Source of the DNA: Alphaproteobacteria bacterium
Lineage (GTDB): Bacteria; Pseudomonadota; Alphaproteobacteria; UBA9219; RGZA01
Length of the DNA: 45,489 nucleotides
Assembly (NCBI GenBank): GCA_033762625.1
Contig: JANRLI010000026.1
Span: 1 to 45,489, forward strand
Reading direction: 5' to 3'
This document shows positions 31,821 to 45,404 of the stretch, piece after piece. Below the pieces are notes generated by a model, which ran no database searches, was not told the DNA's origin, and saw nothing but the letters and a program-made list of their open reading frames with translations. A program made the position numbers and the translations under genes. The stretch's first letter is position 1. Each line of letters begins with the position of its first letter.

Positions 31821-31894
31821 TCCCAAATCAGTATTGAGCTTAAGTGCAAGGGGTGAGATTATCTCGTCTTCTGTCCTTTCTGCACTTCCGGCTC

Positions 31895-32866
31895 ATGCGC
31901 ATCGTCCTTTTCCGTATTGATAAAATTGGTGATCTAATTGTCTCTTCCCCCGTGATTGCGGCGATTAAGGCAAAGCATCCATCTGCACAAATCATGTTGG
32001 TGGTCGCGCCATATAATGCCGTAGCGGCAAAGGGTCTGCCGGGCGTCGATGAATTGGTTTTATATGAAAAAGAACGCGAAGCTGTGGTCTTGGAAAAAAT
32101 CCGCGCCTTCAAACCCACGCACACTATTGTCATGAGCCCCAAGGATGCCTGTTACACCCTTTCGCGCAAGAGTGGCGCAAACGAACAGGGCTGGATCATC
32201 ATGGAATACCGTCCATGGGTGAGGTTACTTGGCGCGCTTATTATTCCCAAAAAAAATCGCGAGATGATACCGCGTACACAGCGCAGCCTGCATCACAGTG
32301 AACATATTATGAATTTAGCACAGCGTATGGGGTTAGCCGCGCAAGGACAATTTCCATATCTTATCCCCCGCGATAAAGCGGCGGCAGATAAAATAAAAAT
32401 CATGTTGAAGGATAAAGGCATTACTAAACCATATATCGTCGTGCATCTGGTTGATAAATGGGTTGAAGAAAACTGGACCGCGCAAGACGTTAAAAACCTC
32501 CTATTCATGCTGCGTGATAAACTGAAGGTGGATATCGTGGCAAGCGCTGGCCCTGCCGATAAAATCCTTTCATCCGCACTAGAAAAAGACATTCTTGTAT
32601 TAAAAGGATTAAGTTTCGGGGAATGGGTGGCATTATTTGACCAAAGCAGACTCGTTTTAACGCCCGATTGCGCAGCAGTGCATATTGCGTGCGCACTTCA
32701 AAAGCCGCTTTTGGCGCTTTATCAACCTTCCAGATTTGAAACGGCTATGACAGAATATGGCCCGCGCCTGACCGATTACCGCGCCCATGCGTTACTGGAG
32801 CCAAAAAAAATCAACCCGTTTCTATTCCGCGATATTTGCGAACTCTTAAGTATGAATCATTTTTAG
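31895..32866 (+). CDS. Glycosyltransferase family 9 (heptosyltransferase-like)
   Basis: A 323-residue GT9 enzyme. It begins MRIVLFRIDKIGDLIVSSPV, the typical heptosyltransferase N-terminus, and has IVVHLVDKWVEENW in the middle and the sugar-nucleotide site LVLTPDCAAVHIACALQKPLLALYQ near the C-terminus. GT9 members add heptose or related sugars to the LPS core. The frame is open to a GTG at 31844, but the family start is the ATG at 31895, though no clear ribosome site precedes it. It is 8 bases from pepN. Confidence 0.85.
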   Translation: MRIVLFRIDKIGDLIVSSPVIAAIKAKHPSAQIMLVVAPYNAVAAKGLPGVDELVLYEKEREAVVLEKIRAFKPTHTIVMSPKDACYTLSRKSGANEQGWIIMEYRPWVRLLGALIIPKKNREMIPRTQRSLHHSEHIMNLAQRMGLAAQGQFPYLIPRDKAAADKIKIMLKDKGITKPYIVVHLVDKWVEENWTAQDVKNLLFMLRDKLKVDIVASAGPADKILSSALEKDILVLKGLSFGEWVALFDQSRLVLTPDCAAVHIACALQKPLLALYQPSRFETAMTEYGPRLTDYRAHALLEPKKINPFLFRDICELLSMNHF

Positions 32867-35653: not shown

Positions 35654-36211
35654 ATGCGCTTTACCAAAATTGCCGCCCTTGCTGTATCGCTGGCTACCCT
35701 TTCCGCTCCTGCGTTTGCTGCAAGCACCCCTGTGTTGAACGAACCCGCAACCTTGGGCTTTGGTGTTGGATATTACGATGTACTAGAAAACAGCCCTCGC
35801 AAAGAAGCCGCTGATTTCCGCTTGGAATACCGTTCGGCGTTCGACATGCTGGGTTTTGCAAACGCACATAACAGCGTAATCGCAATTCGTCCATTTGGCG
35901 GTCTTGAAACCACCAGCGACGGCGCACTTTACGGTCTTGGCGGGTTCATTTTTGACATGCCAATCGGAAAGCATTTTGTATTCTCGCCTAGCCTTGCAAC
36001 TGGTTTGTATTTTGATGGCGATGGCAAGCGCCTTGGCTCCGTTATTGAATTCCGTTCAACCGTCGAGCTCGGTTACAAGTTTGACAACGGCACCCGCATC
36101 ACCACCTCGTTCGGTCACATTTCGAATGCAGGGATTGGTGACATCAACAGCGGCGTTGAAATTCTCAATGCCTATGTGCATGTGCCAGTTGATAAAATAT
36201 TCAGCAAATAA
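35654..36211 (+). CDS. pagL: Lipid A 3-O-deacylase PagL-like outer-membrane protein
   Basis: A 185-residue outer-membrane beta-barrel with a signal peptide (about 1-23, cut after APAFAAS). The C-terminal TSFGHISNAGIGDINSGVEI carries the PagL triad: H155, S157 and E169, with the spacing of Pseudomonas PagL (S to E is 12 residues), and N165 at the oxyanion position. PagL removes the 3-O-linked acyl chain of lipid A and softens the host or stress response. It stands alone between pepN and a strong terminator. Confidence 0.87.
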   Translation: MRFTKIAALAVSLATLSAPAFAASTPVLNEPATLGFGVGYYDVLENSPRKEAADFRLEYRSAFDMLGFANAHNSVIAIRPFGGLETTSDGALYGLGGFIFDMPIGKHFVFSPSLATGLYFDGDGKRLGSVIEFRSTVELGYKFDNGTRITTSFGHISNAGIGDINSGVEILNAYVHVPVDKIFSK

Positions 36212-37418: not shown

Positions 37419-38777
37419 ATGTCATTGTTCAGCGCCCTTACTGTAGCCGTCGGTGGTCTTAATGCCCAATCGCGCTCAATCGGTCACATTTCAGATAACA
37501 TTGCGAACGCCTCTACCACCGGCTACAAGCGTATTGATACGCAATTTCAAACACTGGTTACACAATCATCCGCTAGCCTTAGCGATCCAGGCGGTGTACG
37601 TGCAACGCCATCCTATCAAAACAATATTGCGGGTAACCTCATTCAATCCCAAAGCCCGCTGGATTTGGCAATCTCCGGGAACGGCTTTTTTGTTGTTAAA
37701 CAACCTGTTGCACAGACCAATGGTTCGGTAGCGTTCACAGGACAAGAATTATATACCCGCCGCGGTGACTTTTCTCTGGATAAATCAGGCTATATGACCA
37801 ATGGCGCAGGCTATGTGCTTGAAGCACATCCGATTAACTCAACCACTAATGTTGTTGATACATCGCAGGTTACACCCGTACTGATTTCAGCAGCGCAAGA
37901 CAACCCTGTTGCAACGACGACGGTGACGTATTCGGCCAACTTACCAGCCAGCGCCACAACCACAACGACATTTTCGCCATCTGATATCCAGATTTATGAT
38001 GCTTTGGGAACCAAACATACGGTTACGTTTGACTGGGTAAAACTGGCAACTAACTCATGGCGTTTAAGCGTTACGCCCTCCGGTGGTACAGCAACCGCTG
38101 GCTTTACGGATAACTCAGGTGCCGCAGTTGCAGCAGGTGCAAGCGTGGCAACCCAGACGCTGGATTTCACATTCCAGACCACAACTCCAGCTGGTACGAT
38201 TGCTACGATTGCTAATAGTGGTCCTGGTACTTTCTTTACGGTAAACACACCAACAACTGCGGGCAACCCTGCAACGGTAACATTCCCTGTAACATTCGCC
38301 GGTGCAGGCAGCCAAAACGTAACGCTGAACTTTGGTTCATACCAGACAGCAGATGGCGTAACCCAGTTTGACGCAACCGACTTGAACGTAAGTTCGATTG
38401 AACAAAACGGTGTACCACAAGGTGCCTTCCGTGACTTATCGATTGATAATAATGGGTTCTTGTCACTGAACTACGATAACGGTCGTTCACGTACCCTCTA
38501 TCAAATTCCTATCACCACCTTTAATAGCCCAAATAACCTGGAACGCAAGGATGGTGGCGTGTTTGGCAGTACGACTGAAAGCGGCACCGCAAGCAGACAT
38601 CTGCCCAACAATAACGGCGCAGGTAAAATCGTAGCGAACTCGCTTGAAGGCTCCAACGTGGATATTGCAGATGAATTCACGAAGATGATTCAGGCACAGC
38701 GCATATATTCCGCGAATGCCAAAACCATCACTACGTCAGATAGCATGTTACAGGAAGTGATTAACATCATCCGTTAA
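37419..38777 (+). CDS. flgE: Flagellar hook protein FlgE
   Basis: A 452-residue hook subunit. The D0 N-terminus has AVGGLNAQSRSIGHISDNIA then NASTTGYKRIDTQF; FlgE/F/G family marks follow (PLDLAISGNGFFVV, YTRRGDFSLDKSGYMTN). The variable middle is Thr/Ala-rich with a FlgE D2-like part (DIQIYDALGTKHTVTFDW). The C-terminal D0 helix is NVDIADEFTKMIQAQRIYSA, ending MLQEVINIIR. First gene after a sigma-54 promoter, followed by flgK and flgL. Confidence 0.95.
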   Translation: MSLFSALTVAVGGLNAQSRSIGHISDNIANASTTGYKRIDTQFQTLVTQSSASLSDPGGVRATPSYQNNIAGNLIQSQSPLDLAISGNGFFVVKQPVAQTNGSVAFTGQELYTRRGDFSLDKSGYMTNGAGYVLEAHPINSTTNVVDTSQVTPVLISAAQDNPVATTTVTYSANLPASATTTTTFSPSDIQIYDALGTKHTVTFDWVKLATNSWRLSVTPSGGTATAGFTDNSGAAVAAGASVATQTLDFTFQTTTPAGTIATIANSGPGTFFTVNTPTTAGNPATVTFPVTFAGAGSQNVTLNFGSYQTADGVTQFDATDLNVSSIEQNGVPQGAFRDLSIDNNGFLSLNYDNGRSRTLYQIPITTFNSPNNLERKDGGVFGSTTESGTASRHLPNNNGAGKIVANSLEGSNVDIADEFTKMIQAQRIYSANAKTITTSDSMLQEVINIIR

Positions 38778-38810: not shown

Positions 38811-40193
38811 ATGTCACTTATTTCTGCGATGAACAATGCAACGTCCAGCATGCGGACAATTCAAACCGACATGCAAGTTATCTCCGGCAATGTCAGTAAT
38901 GCTGGGGTTGAAGGCTATACACGTAAAAAGTTGAATCTAAGTCCGGATGTCAACGGCTTGGACGGCGGCGCAGGCGTACGTATTATCGGGTATCAGCGAT
39001 CGACGTCTGACGCAGTTAGCAAACTGCTAAGCGAAGCGCTTTCAAACGATGGATTATATAACACCCAAAAAGATTATCTGAGCAGCATACAAAATTTGCT
39101 CGGCTCCACTCAAAGCAGCCCAGGCCTTAGCCAGACATTGAGCGACTTCTCAGCTGCATGGAAAAGTCTCGCTGCTTCCCCTGAAGATACGACCGCGAAG
39201 CAGGAAGTAATATACAAGGCGCAGAATCTGACCCGCGAAGTTGCCCGGCTTGCCAACGGTCTTGATAAAATCATCGCCGATGCAAAGATTGATATGACGG
39301 CATCAGTAAATGATTTAAACGTATCGCTTGCTCGCATCCAAGAACTGAATAACGAAATTAGTGCCGCTGATGCTGCCAATCAGAACTCGGGCAATATGCA
39401 GGATGAACGCGACGAGGAAATTCAGAAGATCTCCGCGCTTCTCAAGATCACTGTGGTTGTGCGCCCCAATAATCAGGTGGCTATTTTTACACCTGGTGGT
39501 TCTTCGTTACTGGACAATTCACCCAACACTTACACATGGAATGGTACAGCCATTCTATCGAACGGCGTTGACGTAACAGCCGTATTAAAAGGCGGCAAGA
39601 TTGAAGGACTGGTAGGTGTGCTTGATCAAGGATCCTCAGCGGCAGTGCTGAACGATCCTGGGAAGGCTACGGTTTATAAAATTAACGAGCAGTTGGACAT
39701 GATCGTTGATCTGCTTGCGAATGCGGCGAATTCCTTTGCAACCGCATATGACTCAGCAACCACTGGTGCGGGCGAGCTAGCATCATCATTCTTCACTGGC
39801 ACTACGCGATATAATTTTGCGCTTAATACTGCGCTCGCGAATGGCACCAGCGCAATAAAAATTGCAGCCGCAACGCCAGTAGCGGATGACCTTAACCTAG
39901 CTAACCGCAGCATCAGCGCAGGCAATCTTTCAACAACGAATGTCAGCTATGAAACATTTGCCAATGCAATGATTTCTGCCCAAAACCAGAATGCAAAGCA
40001 GGTTGGAGATCAGGCAGATATCTTCTCATCACTTAAGGACAATTATGATAAGCGTCTTAAGGATGATACAGGCGTCAATGTAGATGAAGAAATCGTAAGA
40101 CTGACCCAATTACAGAATAACTATGCTGCCAGCGCCCGCGTTATCAGCACGGTCAAGCAAATGTTTGATATCATCAACTCATTATTCGGATAG
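38811..40193 (+). CDS. flgK: Flagellar hook-associated protein 1 FlgK
   Basis: A 460-residue junction protein between hook and filament. The N-terminus (MSLISAMNNATSSMRTIQTD, then GNVSNAGVEGYTRKK) and C-terminus (GVNVDEEIVRLTQLQNNYAA, then MFDIINSLFG) are the FlgK D0/D1 ends; RDEEIQKISALL and NNQVAIFTPGG are typical of the D1-D2 part. It starts 33 bases after flgE and is followed at 12 bases by flgL. Full length for the compact alphaproteobacterial forms. Confidence 0.94.
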   Translation: MSLISAMNNATSSMRTIQTDMQVISGNVSNAGVEGYTRKKLNLSPDVNGLDGGAGVRIIGYQRSTSDAVSKLLSEALSNDGLYNTQKDYLSSIQNLLGSTQSSPGLSQTLSDFSAAWKSLAASPEDTTAKQEVIYKAQNLTREVARLANGLDKIIADAKIDMTASVNDLNVSLARIQELNNEISAADAANQNSGNMQDERDEEIQKISALLKITVVVRPNNQVAIFTPGGSSLLDNSPNTYTWNGTAILSNGVDVTAVLKGGKIEGLVGVLDQGSSAAVLNDPGKATVYKINEQLDMIVDLLANAANSFATAYDSATTGAGELASSFFTGTTRYNFALNTALANGTSAIKIAAATPVADDLNLANRSISAGNLSTTNVSYETFANAMISAQNQNAKQVGDQADIFSSLKDNYDKRLKDDTGVNVDEEIVRLTQLQNNYAASARVISTVKQMFDIINSLFG

Positions 40194-40205: not shown

Positions 40206-41165
40206 ATGGTTAGTATCAGCACATCCGGTTTAATAGCGCAAAGCATATTGCAAATACGCGACGCACAAGCAACATTGAGCGACCTATCGAACCAGTTATC
40301 TACCGGAAAAAAATCCATCGATTTTACTGACTTCACCCTGACGGAAACTAGTACACTGCTAGATGTCAACACCAGCGTTGACAAAAGCAATTCCTATTTA
40401 AATGTTATCAATGTCATATCGCCACGCTTAAAGCTGTATGAAACATCGCTGACCAAGCTCAGCAGCATCGCAAGTGACGCCCTTGCAAGTGTAAACACAA
40501 ACGATTTCAACTCTGCCACCAATGCAGCGCTCGGCCAGCAGCTATCAAGCTATCTCAGTGATGTCGGGTATTATTTAAACCAGAAAGTTGGCGAACGATT
40601 CATTTTCGCTGGAACCGGTACACGCCTTACAACAGCGCCCGTAGTTGATTTGACAACGCTCCCTGTACCGCCAGTTGCGCCCGACACAGCCCCTGTTACA
40701 TCACCGACCCTGCCAACATCCGATACGGCGGCGCCTGGTTCCGACGTTCAGGCCTATACCCATGATTCAACAAATATTGATGATGGATATAACATCACTT
40801 ACGGTGTAACGAGCACCGACACTGGTATGCAGAACCTTATTCTTGGGCTGCGCTGGGCCTATGCAGCCACCCAAAGCTCTGCCAACTTCACAACTTATAT
40901 GGCAACGGCACGTACGCTTTTGACCAATGCAGTTCCACAACTGCGTGATATACAGGCACAGATCGCATCGAACCAAAACCGTCTTTCCGACGTAACAACC
41001 ACCCACAAAACTCTGATAAATGACCTGACCAATCGGGCTGCTGATATTCAAGGCATCGACTCGGCAGAGGTGGCAGCAAAAATCTCTTTTACCCAGTCTA
41101 AATTAGAGGCAAGTTATTCGGTAACTGCTAAAATTGCGCAGCTATCGATAACAAAGTACCTATAG
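40206..41165 (+). CDS. flgL: Flagellar hook-associated protein 3 FlgL (flagellin-like)
   Basis: A 319-residue flagellin-fold protein. The N-terminal helix has LQIRDAQATLSDLSNQLSTG; DVGYYLNQKVGERFIFAGTG is the FlgL hallmark; the C-terminal helix is AAKISFTQSKLEASYSVTAK. A Pro/Thr-rich insert (about 150-180) sits in the variable domain. It completes the flgE-flgK-flgL set. GAGGATTTT precedes the ATG. Confidence 0.9.
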   Translation: MVSISTSGLIAQSILQIRDAQATLSDLSNQLSTGKKSIDFTDFTLTETSTLLDVNTSVDKSNSYLNVINVISPRLKLYETSLTKLSSIASDALASVNTNDFNSATNAALGQQLSSYLSDVGYYLNQKVGERFIFAGTGTRLTTAPVVDLTTLPVPPVAPDTAPVTSPTLPTSDTAAPGSDVQAYTHDSTNIDDGYNITYGVTSTDTGMQNLILGLRWAYAATQSSANFTTYMATARTLLTNAVPQLRDIQAQIASNQNRLSDVTTTHKTLINDLTNRAADIQGIDSAEVAAKISFTQSKLEASYSVTAKIAQLSITKYL

Positions 41166-41218: not shown

Positions 41219-42739
41219 ATGTTTGCGGCGAGTTCATTGTTGCGTTTACCATTTGACCCCGTCACGCTTAGCTATGTTATGGCATTGCGGGGTGTTAAGC
41301 CCAGGCTTCCTAAAGAAGGGTTCACTTATGCCGAGCTAGGCTGTGGTACAGGAGAACGCATCGTATTATTGGCGGCATGCAACCCTGAAGGTGTGTTTTT
41401 TGGTTTTGATTCAAATCTCGACAAACTTAATGTCGCCGCACAAAAAGCCGAAGAGCTTGGGGTTGAGAACATCACCTTTAGCCAGGCCAGTGCCGCCGAG
41501 TTAAAGGAAGCAATTGATAATGGAGTTATAGCCAATAAGAGCTTCAATTATCTTGTGTATAATGAGCCCGACAATCCGCAGCAAGAGTCGATTGCAACAT
41601 TAGGTGAGCTAGCCAAAGCCCTTTTGCAGGAAAACGGCGTTTTTGCCTATCGATATGCAACGTATAACGCTGCGAATGCGGATGAATTGTTATTCAAGAG
41701 CCTAACCCGCCATATTATTGCCGAACAACCGGATAAAGGAGAAACGCTTGCAAAAGAATGGCGAGCGTTATGTGAAAGTTATTTTGCCAAGCACCCTGCC
41801 AAAGCACAGGAATTCGACAAGGCATTGGCTGAAGGCAAAGGTTTCCAATGGCTGCGCAATTCATCTGACGGCGAAACATCAACAAGCAAGACCTTGCAGG
41901 TTTCGCAGATATTTTCCGGTCGCGATTTGACCTATTTGGGCAGCGCCAATCTCTCTGCCAACTATATGGAACTATCAGCCCCAGAAGCATCACATAAAGC
42001 GCTGGAAGCAAAGCGCCTGCACCCGCTTTACGAATCGCTTAAGGATTTAGCAACTGGCACTACACAACGTATTGATTTATGGGGCCGCGAAAAGTTGCAA
42101 CGGATTGATAACCTTGTCCCTCTGTTCAGCAGCTTTACATTTGGTGTCACAGAGCCGGCAGAACAAGTGGCGCGTACGGCTACATTCCAAGGCAAGACCA
42201 TCTCCTTCGATGGACCGCTTTATGATGGCGTTATTTCAATGGCCAGCATTATGCCCATCACAATGGGTGATTTGGTGCATAATGAGCGTCTGTCGGAAGT
42301 TGATGCCGTTACCATACTAAACACCGTTCAACTGTTGGTTGCATGCGGCATTTTATCGCCGATGCGGGCATCTTTTGAAGGCGGTATTGATTTAAGCAAT
42401 CCAAAATTGGTGGGCAGCTATAACCAGTCTTTACGCAAAATGCGCGCCGATATGCAGGACTATGCGTTTGCTTCTGTTGTTACAGGTCGCCCTGTATTCT
42501 TTTCGGGCATCGGAACGCTGGTTCTGCAAAACCTTGATAAAGGCGGCATGGAAGGCATTGCCGGTTTCATGAGTGATGATTTGATGCGTCTTTCGCAACA
42601 TCCATTTTTGCAGCCGCTTAACCTGAATAATCCGCAGCGTGCAGCCGAAGAGGCGTATAATCAGATCGAGATTATGTTCCAGCAATCTATGGTACGTTGG
42701 TTCAGCCTTGGCGTTATCGATACACAAAAAATTGCTTAA
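41219..42739 (+). CDS. PKMT-like SAM methyltransferase with methyltransferase regulatory domain
   Basis: A 506-residue protein. The N-terminal class I fold has motif I YAELGCGTGERIVLLAACNP (37-56) and acidic D64. The middle part has YRYATYN (144-150) and the block VSQIFSGRDLTYLGSANL (228-245), which matches the MethyTransf_Reg domain. Rickettsia protein-lysine methyltransferases PKMT1/2, which modify the surface protein OmpB, share this layout. Placed between flgL and flagellin genes, it is a candidate flagellin methyltransferase; that is inference. AAGAGG lies 7 bases before the ATG. The TPR/GT9 gene follows at 33 bases. Confidence 0.82.
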   Translation: MFAASSLLRLPFDPVTLSYVMALRGVKPRLPKEGFTYAELGCGTGERIVLLAACNPEGVFFGFDSNLDKLNVAAQKAEELGVENITFSQASAAELKEAIDNGVIANKSFNYLVYNEPDNPQQESIATLGELAKALLQENGVFAYRYATYNAANADELLFKSLTRHIIAEQPDKGETLAKEWRALCESYFAKHPAKAQEFDKALAEGKGFQWLRNSSDGETSTSKTLQVSQIFSGRDLTYLGSANLSANYMELSAPEASHKALEAKRLHPLYESLKDLATGTTQRIDLWGREKLQRIDNLVPLFSSFTFGVTEPAEQVARTATFQGKTISFDGPLYDGVISMASIMPITMGDLVHNERLSEVDAVTILNTVQLLVACGILSPMRASFEGGIDLSNPKLVGSYNQSLRKMRADMQDYAFASVVTGRPVFFSGIGTLVLQNLDKGGMEGIAGFMSDDLMRLSQHPFLQPLNLNNPQRAAEEAYNQIEIMFQQSMVRWFSLGVIDTQKIA

Positions 42740-42772
42740 AAATTTAAAGTCCCAGTAAATTAAAGCCATACC

Positions 42773-44341
42773 TTGGAAACTGCGCAGGAAAAATTCGACA
42801 AGGCCGTCGCACTGCATCAAGCCGGAAAGATAGGCGAAGCAGCTGCTATTTATCGTGATATTTTAATGGCTGACCCGAATAACGTGATGGTTATTCATCT
42901 GTTGTGCTTGGTTGCCATGCAGTTTGATAACGCACAAATGGTTTTGGGGTTATCGGAACAAGGCCTGCGCGTTGAACCCAAATTCGCTGTGTTGCATCAA
43001 GACCGAGCAACTGCCTTGCGCCGCATGGGGTTGAAGGAACAAGCATTGGAAGCGATTGATACCGCATTAAGGCTTGAAAAAAACGCTGATTTTTATGATA
43101 CACGCGCATCCATCTTGCGGGATATGCGCCGCTATGCTGAATCCGTCACATGCCTTGAAACGGCCATACGTATCGAAACAGGAAATCCGAAATTCTATAA
43201 TAATCTGGGGATTGTGCTTGGCCGTATGGGTCGTAATGAGGAAGCAATTTGTTACTTTGATGCCTTCATCACGATGCGCCCTACTGCCGCTGAAGGCTAT
43301 AACAACAAGGCCAATGTTCTTAAAGCGATGGCACGATATAAGGATGCGATTGAGTTTTATGATAAAGCGTTAGCCATCGATCCAAATATTTTTATGGGCA
43401 AGGCCAATAAAGCCATTTCACATTTGGTTCTGGGTGAATGGGAAGCTGGCTGGGAAAACTTCGAGGATAGAAAGCCCGGTAATAGGCCACCTGAGGGCGA
43501 TCGTTTTAATTCCGGCAAGCGCTGGCAAGGGCAAACCGATAATGCTGCCACCATTATCATCTATAACGAACAGGGTCTTGGCGACAGCATTCAATTCATG
43601 CGTTACATCGCACACGTGCAAGAGCGCGTGGGCCGCGTTATTTTGCAAATCCAGCCAGCATTAAAAAAACTGGTATCAATCAACTGGCCATGGCTTGAAA
43701 CAATTGCACCAGAAGATGAACTACCTGCACATGATTACCAATGCCCGTTGATGAGCCTTCCTTACGTCTTTAAAACACGGATTGATAATGTGCCATTAGC
43801 CTCAGGATACATAAAGGCGCCGGAAGCCAGCATATCCGAATGGAAAGAAAAGCTTGGTAACAGCCACAAGAAAAAAATTGGGCTTGTATGGGCAGGAAAC
43901 CCCGATCATTTGAATGACCATATTCGTTCCATTCCCTTAAAGCTGCTTGAACCAATTTTATCAATGAATGAATTCCAGTTTTACTCCCTGCAAAAAGGTG
44001 ATGCCGCAGCAGCTCAACTTGCAGAACTTCCCAAAACCATTCCTGTAAAAGCCCTTGGCGATCAGCTGAATGATTTCACCGATACTGCCGGATTATTAAT
44101 GAATCTGGATTTACTGATTTGCGTAGATACCAGTGTATTGCATCTTGCTGGCGCATTGGGCGTACCAGTATGGGGATTATTCCAATACGACCCTGATTGG
44201 CGCTGGCTACTAGAACGTCGAGATACGCCATGGTATGCCAGCATGCGGTTGTTCCGCCAGCAGAGTTATGGCAACTGGCCAGATGTTGTCAAAGAATTGC
44301 GCGGAGCACTAAAATCGTTTTTATCCTCCGAACAGATTTAA
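42773..44341 (+). CDS. TPR protein with GT9-like C-terminal domain, candidate flagellin glycosylation factor
   Basis: A 522-residue protein. About six tetratricopeptide repeats fill residues 1-215 (for example KFYNNLGIVLGRMGRNEEAI, EGYNNKANVLKAMARYKDAI). The C-terminal part (about 240-515) resembles GT9 heptosyltransferases: IGLVWAGNPDHLNDHIRSIP, then LLICVDTSVLHLAGALGVPV. TPR proteins such as Caulobacter FlbA take part in flagellin modification, so the location suggests the same; the donor sugar is unknown. The start is TTG at 42773 with no clear ribosome site; an in-frame stop lies 9 bases upstream and TPR 1 begins at once. Its end overlaps the flagellin gene by 21 bases. Confidence 0.82.
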   Translation: METAQEKFDKAVALHQAGKIGEAAAIYRDILMADPNNVMVIHLLCLVAMQFDNAQMVLGLSEQGLRVEPKFAVLHQDRATALRRMGLKEQALEAIDTALRLEKNADFYDTRASILRDMRRYAESVTCLETAIRIETGNPKFYNNLGIVLGRMGRNEEAICYFDAFITMRPTAAEGYNNKANVLKAMARYKDAIEFYDKALAIDPNIFMGKANKAISHLVLGEWEAGWENFEDRKPGNRPPEGDRFNSGKRWQGQTDNAATIIIYNEQGLGDSIQFMRYIAHVQERVGRVILQIQPALKKLVSINWPWLETIAPEDELPAHDYQCPLMSLPYVFKTRIDNVPLASGYIKAPEASISEWKEKLGNSHKKKIGLVWAGNPDHLNDHIRSIPLKLLEPILSMNEFQFYSLQKGDAAAAQLAELPKTIPVKALGDQLNDFTDTAGLLMNLDLLICVDTSVLHLAGALGVPVWGLFQYDPDWRWLLERRDTPWYASMRLFRQQSYGNWPDVVKELRGALKSFLSSEQI

Positions 44342-45157
44342 AATGGATTTCTGAATTTCTCCTGAAATATTTAGTGTAGTAATAGCAAGCTCGTTGCGCG
44401 TTTGAAGGGCAAGCAATTTCGCGCTTTCTTCATTTGTATCGGCAAGAACAAGTGCATCTGACCCTTCTTGCAGTGTCGTAATCAAATTATTGGTAAAATC
44501 CTGACGGGTTGTAATAATCGAGGTATTATTACCAAAGCTGGAGGAAGTTACTCGTAATTTAGTTAGCGCGGTGGTTAATTGAGATACAGCGGTATTTATA
44601 TTACTATCGGAAACAAACCCTGCCGATGCAACAGCAACGCTTAACCCCCCGCCGGTATTGATTGAGAGATTTGTATTGGTAATCGTCAACTTGGAGGTAT
44701 TTTTTTCGTTGAAGTATACAACCAGACTGACGGATGTTTGACCAATCAAGTTCGTACCGTTGAACGTCGCATCGTTTACGAGCGAGTTAACTTGTACGAG
44801 CAAGTCATTGAACTGAACAGCAAGACCGGAACGGGTATCACTATCGGCTGTCTGCAAAGCAGAAGTCGTGAGACCCTGGGCTTGTTGAATAATTTTGGTG
44901 ATACTGTCAATCGCACCGGAAGCTGCTTTTACTGTCTGTAAGGAAGTGGACAGGCTATCTTTGATGTTTGATAAATCATTAGCACGGTTTAAAAAACCAA
45001 CGCTTGTAAAATACGCGTTTGAATTATCAAGAGAAGATGCAACCTTCAGGCCAGTAGCAAGCCGTGCTTGGGTTGTAGCGATTTGGCTCGAAATCTGTTG
45101 CAACGAGTATAAATTTACACGAGTTGCCGCAGTCAGCGACACGCTTGAAATAGCCAT
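44321..45157 (-). CDS. Flagellin (short, 278 residues)
   Basis: A filament subunit. The N-terminal helix ISSQIATTQARLATGLKVAS and the following SLDNSNAYFTSVGFLNRAND replace the more common RLSSGLRINSA-DDAAG pattern; this variant occurs in other alphaproteobacteria. The C-terminal helix is KLLALQTRNELAITTLNISG, ending ILNLFGG. The central variable domain is small (about 140-200). No Cys. AAAAGG is 8 bases before the ATG. It converges on the TPR/GT9 gene, sharing 21 bases. A CtrA-like box and TATAAT lie about 110-135 bases upstream. Confidence 0.92.
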   Translation of the reverse strand: MAISSVSLTAATRVNLYSLQQISSQIATTQARLATGLKVASSLDNSNAYFTSVGFLNRANDLSNIKDSLSTSLQTVKAASGAIDSITKIIQQAQGLTTSALQTADSDTRSGLAVQFNDLLVQVNSLVNDATFNGTNLIGQTSVSLVVYFNEKNTSKLTITNTNLSINTGGGLSVAVASAGFVSDSNINTAVSQLTTALTKLRVTSSSFGNNTSIITTRQDFTNNLITTLQEGSDALVLADTNEESAKLLALQTRNELAITTLNISGEIQKSILNLFGG

Positions 45158-45292: not shown

Positions 45293-45359
45293 TTCGTTTC
45301 AATAATGTAAAAATATTCTTGCAATAAGATCGCTCTACTCAAAAAAACCCAATAAAAAA

Positions 45360-45381
45360 GGGGCGCTATTTCTAGCGCCCC
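45360..45381 (-). terminator. Intrinsic terminator after the second flagellin gene
   Basis: A perfect 9-bp stem (ggggcgcta / tagcgcccc) with a 4-base loop, followed on the minus strand by a T-rich run. It is 23 bases past the stop of the flagellin gene that enters from the right edge. Confidence 0.9.
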
Positions 45382-45404
45382 TGATCTTATTAAGTATCCA
45401 ACAA

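Follow-up and report, generated by a model that had tools for sequence, protein, structure and literature searches.

The lysine methyltransferases PKMT1 and PKMT2 of Rickettsia (PDB 5dnk, 5doo) and KmtA of Acinetobacter sp. Tol 5 belong to one wider family that acts on surface proteins: OmpB is methylated in Rickettsia and AtaA in Acinetobacter, where the target of KmtA is a surface fibre protein, an autotransporter adhesin and not a flagellar protein (PMC11784438). Asp102 and His146 of PKMT1 make critical hydrogen bonds with AdoMet, and KmtA retains both AdoMet-binding residues (PMC11784438). Lysine methylation of flagellin is known from FliB of Salmonella, whose gene is also linked to flagellin, but FliB is a radical-SAM [4Fe-4S] enzyme from an unrelated family (PMC8598068, PMC7181671). 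In the glycosyltransferase FlmG of Caulobacter crescentus, a TPR part binds flagellin and a GT-B part transfers pseudaminic acid, the synthesis of which depends on NeuB (PMC7591256). Methylation and glycosylation of one and the same flagellin are known in Aeromonas caviae (PMC9290775); the general idea of combining the two modifications has a precedent there, but the enzymes differ from those described here. We found no paper in the open-licence literature on a PF10119 protein of a flagellar operon.

The window that we analysed, i.e., the whole stretch of 45,489 nucleotides, is a contig from an alphaproteobacterial genome (G000; 2.23 Mb, 26 contigs, 100% complete, four flagellin genes). The initial annotation had described two genes between flgL and the flagellins as a candidate flagellin modification module. 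Both open reading frames are present at these positions (Table 1), and neither is a member of the standard flagellar set, as had been claimed. The stop of the flagellin gene, on the minus strand, overlaps the 3' end of the gene that joins TPR repeats to a GT9-like domain (TPR-GT gene). A G+C-rich inverted repeat at 45354-45382, between the two flagellin genes, looks terminator-like by eye. A stand-alone GT9 protein (31844-32866) and a PagL-type lipid A deacylase (35654-36211) are encoded a few kilobases upstream of flgE.

Table 1. Features of the flagellar region of the window, with coordinates in the window.
Feature	Position	Strand	Basis or remark
flgE	37419..38777	+	ORF call and profile match
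flgK	38811..40193	+	ORF call and profile match
flgL, hook-filament junction protein	40206..41165	+	constant upstream partner of the methyltransferase-like gene
PKMT-fold methyltransferase-like gene, 506 aa	41219..42739	+	directly 3' of flgL
SAM motif I, E39-L-G-C-G-T-G45	41333..41353	+	alignment; intact in the window's genus only
D64, equivalent of PKMT1 AdoMet-binding Asp102 (putative)	41408..41410	+	alignment
N115-P120, at the canonical HGxxSW site (PKMT1 His146; putative)	41561..41578	+	alignment
PF10119 methyltransferase regulatory domain, residues 227-289	41897..42085	+	profile match
C-terminal part, residues 301-506	42119..42736	+	most constrained part between sister species
TPR-GT9 gene, 522 aa, TTG start	42773..44341	+	TPR and Glyco_transf_9 matches
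TPR repeat part, about residues 1-228	42773..43456	+	profile matches
GT9-like glycosyltransferase domain	43475..44338	+	profile and relatives' alignment
Flagellin, 278 aa, convergent	44321..45157	-	ORF call and profile match
Second flagellin, C-terminal end, cut by contig edge	45405..45489	-	sequence reading

The methyltransferase-like protein matches Methyltransf_31 (E 5.7e-15) and PF10119 (E 6.3e-7) in a profile search, both above the curated cut-offs. An AlphaFold model built on 31 relatives (mean pLDDT 89.8) resembles PKMT1 most closely among PDB structures (Z 25.0, rmsd 3.8, 393 residues aligned over model residues 5-501), followed by PKMT2 (Z 23.4), with the next family at Z 17.6. The family profile likewise has PKMT1 (3.6e-12) and PKMT2 (6.9e-9) as its top matches among the PDB sequences. 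The comparison with the Rickettsia enzymes made in the initial annotation is therefore correct for domain layout and for a nearly full-length fold. The window protein is about 15-18% identical to PKMT1 and PKMT2, and in a search with this single sequence the similarity to PKMT1 is weak (E 0.033). No sequence match to PF21782, the PKMT C-terminal winged helix, was found in the window protein, nor in the members of its clade at E 0.01, but the structural match to PKMT does extend through the equivalent part. PF10119 is matched by 29 of 31 clade members and the general methyltransferase domain by 7 of 31.

Of the 33 genomes of the order, 31 contain the gene according to a profile made from six relatives, with all listed matches at E 4e-118 or better; completeness is 89% and 80% in the two genomes that lack a match. 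Outside the order, the gene occurs in one genome, G100. In each of the 32 loci it comes immediately 3' of flgL in the same orientation, with a gap of at most 55 bases or with an overlap that results from mechanical start choice. Across the class, the profile matches outside this set drop sharply, from 5.6e-147 to 2.0e-46. Flagellin is encoded by all good-quality genomes of the order. When 38 loci of canonical PF10119 proteins, some of them without full flanks, were scanned for FlgE, FlgK, FlgL and flagellin, flagellar genes were nearby in a single one (G271). The adjacency to flgL in 32 of 32 flagellar loci is thus not due to chance, and the suspected flagellar linkage is borne out by the neighbourhood survey; a general habit of PF10119 genes to adjoin flagella can be rejected. 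The methyltransferase-like gene is a fixed gene of the flgE-flgK-flgL operon in this order.

The G271 locus itself (L190:704-10282) has a canonical PF10119 methyltransferase with an intact SAM loop adjoining FlgE, FlgL and FlgK, in a different gene order and with FlgE and FlgL proteins that are unusually long (1103 aa and 688 aa, respectively), and possibly represents an independent link with flagella. The possibility that the gene behind flgL replaces FlaF or FlbT was rejected, as both are present between the flagellins of a sister species.

In a quick tree search the flagellar clade is separated from the canonical members (SH-aLRT 99), and the families f1, f2 and f3 each form one group, which fits vertical descent; the position of G100, on a long branch, is unsure. 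The proteins encoded behind flgL form a branch of their own within the PKMT/PF10119 family, passed on vertically. The median pairwise protein identity within the clade (0.38) is like that of FlgK (0.38) and FlgL (0.37), and the position behind flgL holds throughout the order at identities of about 30%. When the window is compared with its sister species G308, the gene has a dN of 0.026 and a dS of 1.21 (ratio 0.022), the lowest ratio of the five operon genes measured (flgE 0.037, flgK 0.054, flgL 0.067, TPR-GT 0.046); these values come from the simple Nei-Gojobori method, at dS close to or above 1, and rank the genes only roughly. On the same scale, the C-terminal part has a ratio of about 0.009 (dN 0.0084, dS 0.97), and the N-terminal part, at about 0.027, is also under purifying selection. 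With such low ratios, and with open frames free of stops in all 31 listed matches of the order, a pseudogene can be rejected.

In the canonical relatives, the loop E-x-G-C-G-x-G is near invariant (G41 in 34, G43 in 34 and G45 in 35 of 36 sequences), and residue 64 is acidic in all 36. Of the 32 members of the flagellar clade, three have the glycine loop intact, namely the window protein and its two congeners; G389, also of the window's family, has a partial loop (NCGTA), and none of the other 28 members has G at position 45. D64 is retained in all four members of the window's family and in none of these 28, where residue 64 is mostly V, I or L. Furthermore, every one of the 32 flagellar members has other residues in place of the HGxxSW motif, of which 35 of 36 canonical sequences have the G, 35 the W and 28 the H; the window's copy is no exception and reads NEPDNP at this site. 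By profile alignment, in which a one-residue offset between chain index and published numbering has to be allowed, Asp102 and His146 of PKMT1 would correspond to D64 and N115 of the window protein. Relative to PKMT1 and PKMT2, the clade has thus lost the His146 motif throughout, and the glycine loop and the Asp102 equivalent outside the window's family, while becoming fixed in a flagellar operon.

The loop is not simply degraded: 27 members outside the window's family share a new consensus, for example with P or A at 45, E at 46 and C at 50, and with LAASNPEG at 51-58. The idea that the motif only seems lost because of misalignment was rejected, since Y37 and the block A52/N55/P56/F60 are invariant on both sides. 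On the tree, at least two or three changes of motif state are required, and the motif may therefore have been lost more than once. A member without the motifs, L126, still has the PKMT fold in its model (pLDDT 90.0), with PKMT1 as the top match (Z 22.3 over 396 residues). Given the loss of the SAM motifs in most members, lysine methylation is unlikely as the shared function of the clade. As a role for the whole clade, the active methylation proposed in the initial annotation was therefore rejected, and it is left for the window's genus only; the window's copy, under strong purifying selection, has both the loop and the counterpart of Asp102, as would be expected of a live SAM site. The protein was also said to be distinct from FliB, and in agreement with this it has no FliB-family match in an NCBIfam hmmscan; the FliB model NF038110 had no match in the source genome, nor in any control genome.

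The second gene has the architecture first ascribed to it: its product matches TPR families (down to 4e-22) and Glyco_transf_9 (PF01075; E 2.2e-6, above the cut-off). The GT9 donor-site motif, DTSVLHLAGALG at 44126-44161, is kept in relatives, and a motif near D(T/S)xxxHxAGALG occurs with few variants in all flagellar-locus relatives with a full domain. The TTG start is at the same place in a close relative (L037). Among PDB sequences, the profile of the GT9-like domain found no relative. With its N-terminal TPR part, its C-terminal part of GT-B type and its place next to flagellin, the protein resembles FlmG in domain layout. By analogy, it would be a FlmG-like cytoplasmic O-glycosyltransferase, the TPR part of which would bind flagellin, and flagellin glycosylation by this protein is plausible. 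However, the source genome, although 100% complete, has no match to NeuB (PF03102), whereas control genomes including Caulobacter do; within the order NeuB is matched in 2 of 33 genomes, strongly in G405 and weakly in G219. If the TPR-GT protein glycosylates flagellin, then the donor is probably another sugar, and the GT9-like part would transfer something other than a nonulosonic acid. Maf (PF01973) had no match in the source genome, and among the controls only archaeal genomes matched. The source organism would have a FlmG-like enzyme but lack the route to nonulosonic acids, which makes the donor sugar a testable question.

In 18 of the 32 loci the gene that comes after the methyltransferase-like one is the TPR-GT gene, with a phosphoesterase or unrelated genes in its place in the others; in one group of the order (L090, L139, L140 and L142) the gene found there encodes a calcineurin-like phosphoesterase. 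The pairing is common but not fixed, and the two genes are therefore not an obligate module for methylation plus glycosylation. The family of the TPR-GT protein is large and paralogous, with members in 123 of 367 genomes of the class and four copies in the source genome; as a specific flagellar marker it was rejected.

We consider it an even bet that the protein behind flgL is a PKMT-derived flagellar protein, a pseudoenzyme in most lineages, that is kept to bind filament or junction subunits before their export, and that may still methylate in the window's family. It would descend from a methyltransferase to which surface subunits of the flagellum were bound while still in the cytoplasm. PKMT-type enzymes presumably bind surface proteins that are exported unfolded, and the branch tied to flgL could bind filament and junction subunits. 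This branch would have retained the subunit-binding scaffold, that is, the PKMT-type peptide cleft and the C-terminal domains, and would have dropped catalysis in most lineages. With the scaffold kept and catalysis dropped, the common role would be the binding of flagellin and/or FlgL/FlgK before export, as a chaperone, a holding factor or a quality-control adaptor. The loss of the methyl-donor motif in most members likewise suggests that the shared job is probably the handling of flagellar proteins and not methylation. Members of the window's own family would still bind SAM and perhaps methylate. The substrate could be flagellin, FlgL, FlgK or something else. More tentatively, with chances that we put somewhat below even, a lysine methyltransferase of surface proteins was drawn into the flagellar operon of the order and became a conserved assembly factor of the flagellum that no longer catalyses; the window's genus would then represent an intermediate that still bears the SAM site.

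An alternative explanation is that the window copy is an active lysine methyltransferase of flagellin, or of FlgL or FlgK, and that the motif loss elsewhere is secondary. The loop is intact in three species of the genus, D64 is present throughout the family, the model has the PKMT fold, the N-terminal part is constrained, the flagellin offers nine lysines, and the known relatives methylate OmpB and AtaA. However, NEPDNP stands where the His146 equivalent would be, and the sister families without a SAM loop still keep both the gene and its position, which argues for a conserved role that is independent of the loop. We regard this alternative as rather unlikely. If, on the other hand, the site had been rebuilt and all members still used it to bind SAM or a different cofactor and to modify a flagellar protein, then one would understand why the loop is rewritten to a new consensus and not randomised, and why the L126 model keeps the fold; the loss of the motifs is a sequence-based reading, and SAM could indeed be bound in another way by the motif-less members. 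Yet the glycine loop, the acidic ribose-binding residue and HGxxSW were lost together, which makes such a site improbable.

The protein might also methylate a sugar that the neighbouring TPR-GT protein adds to flagellin. The glycosyltransferase does adjoin the gene in over half of the loci, but the gene is present without it in the others, the fold is that of a protein lysine methyltransferase and not of a sugar methyltransferase, and the loss of the SAM motif counts against this idea as well, so that we give it very little credence. Equally remote is the notion that the gene merely shares the operon and that its product acts elsewhere, for example on outer-membrane proteins. The canonical relatives do target outer-membrane or secreted proteins (PMC11784438), and one canonical member is encoded in a type I secretion locus (L183:268-14733), together with large repeat proteins and a glycosyltransferase, a setting that suits the methylation of secreted surface proteins. 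However, the place behind flgL is kept across the divergence of the order, and the source genome has a separate canonical PKMT-type gene on contig C7 (L057:2671-4149, minus strand), which matches PF10119 (1e-21) and PF21782 PKMT_2nd (1.2e-11), has intact motifs and keeps HGxxSW. This paralogue is a better candidate for an outer-membrane lysine methyltransferase of this genome than the flagellar copy.

The flgE-flgK-flgL operon gains a lineage-wide, uncharacterised component, and the PKMT family, known from OmpB and AtaA, is extended to flagella. Because the sister families differ in whether they retain the SAM site, the group also offers a natural comparison for the passage from an enzyme that handles secreted surface proteins to a pseudoenzyme.

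On contig C21 of the source genome (L060:499-3664) the genes flanking a further flagellin encode a family 2 glycosyltransferase with a TPR and a fragment of a DXD sugar-binding protein. Contig C24 carries a second TPR-GT gene in the vicinity of flagellins, as does the sister species. Beside flagellins in two species, a second TPR-GT comes after a small protein of about 117 aa (L058:911-2860 and L037:16796-18749).
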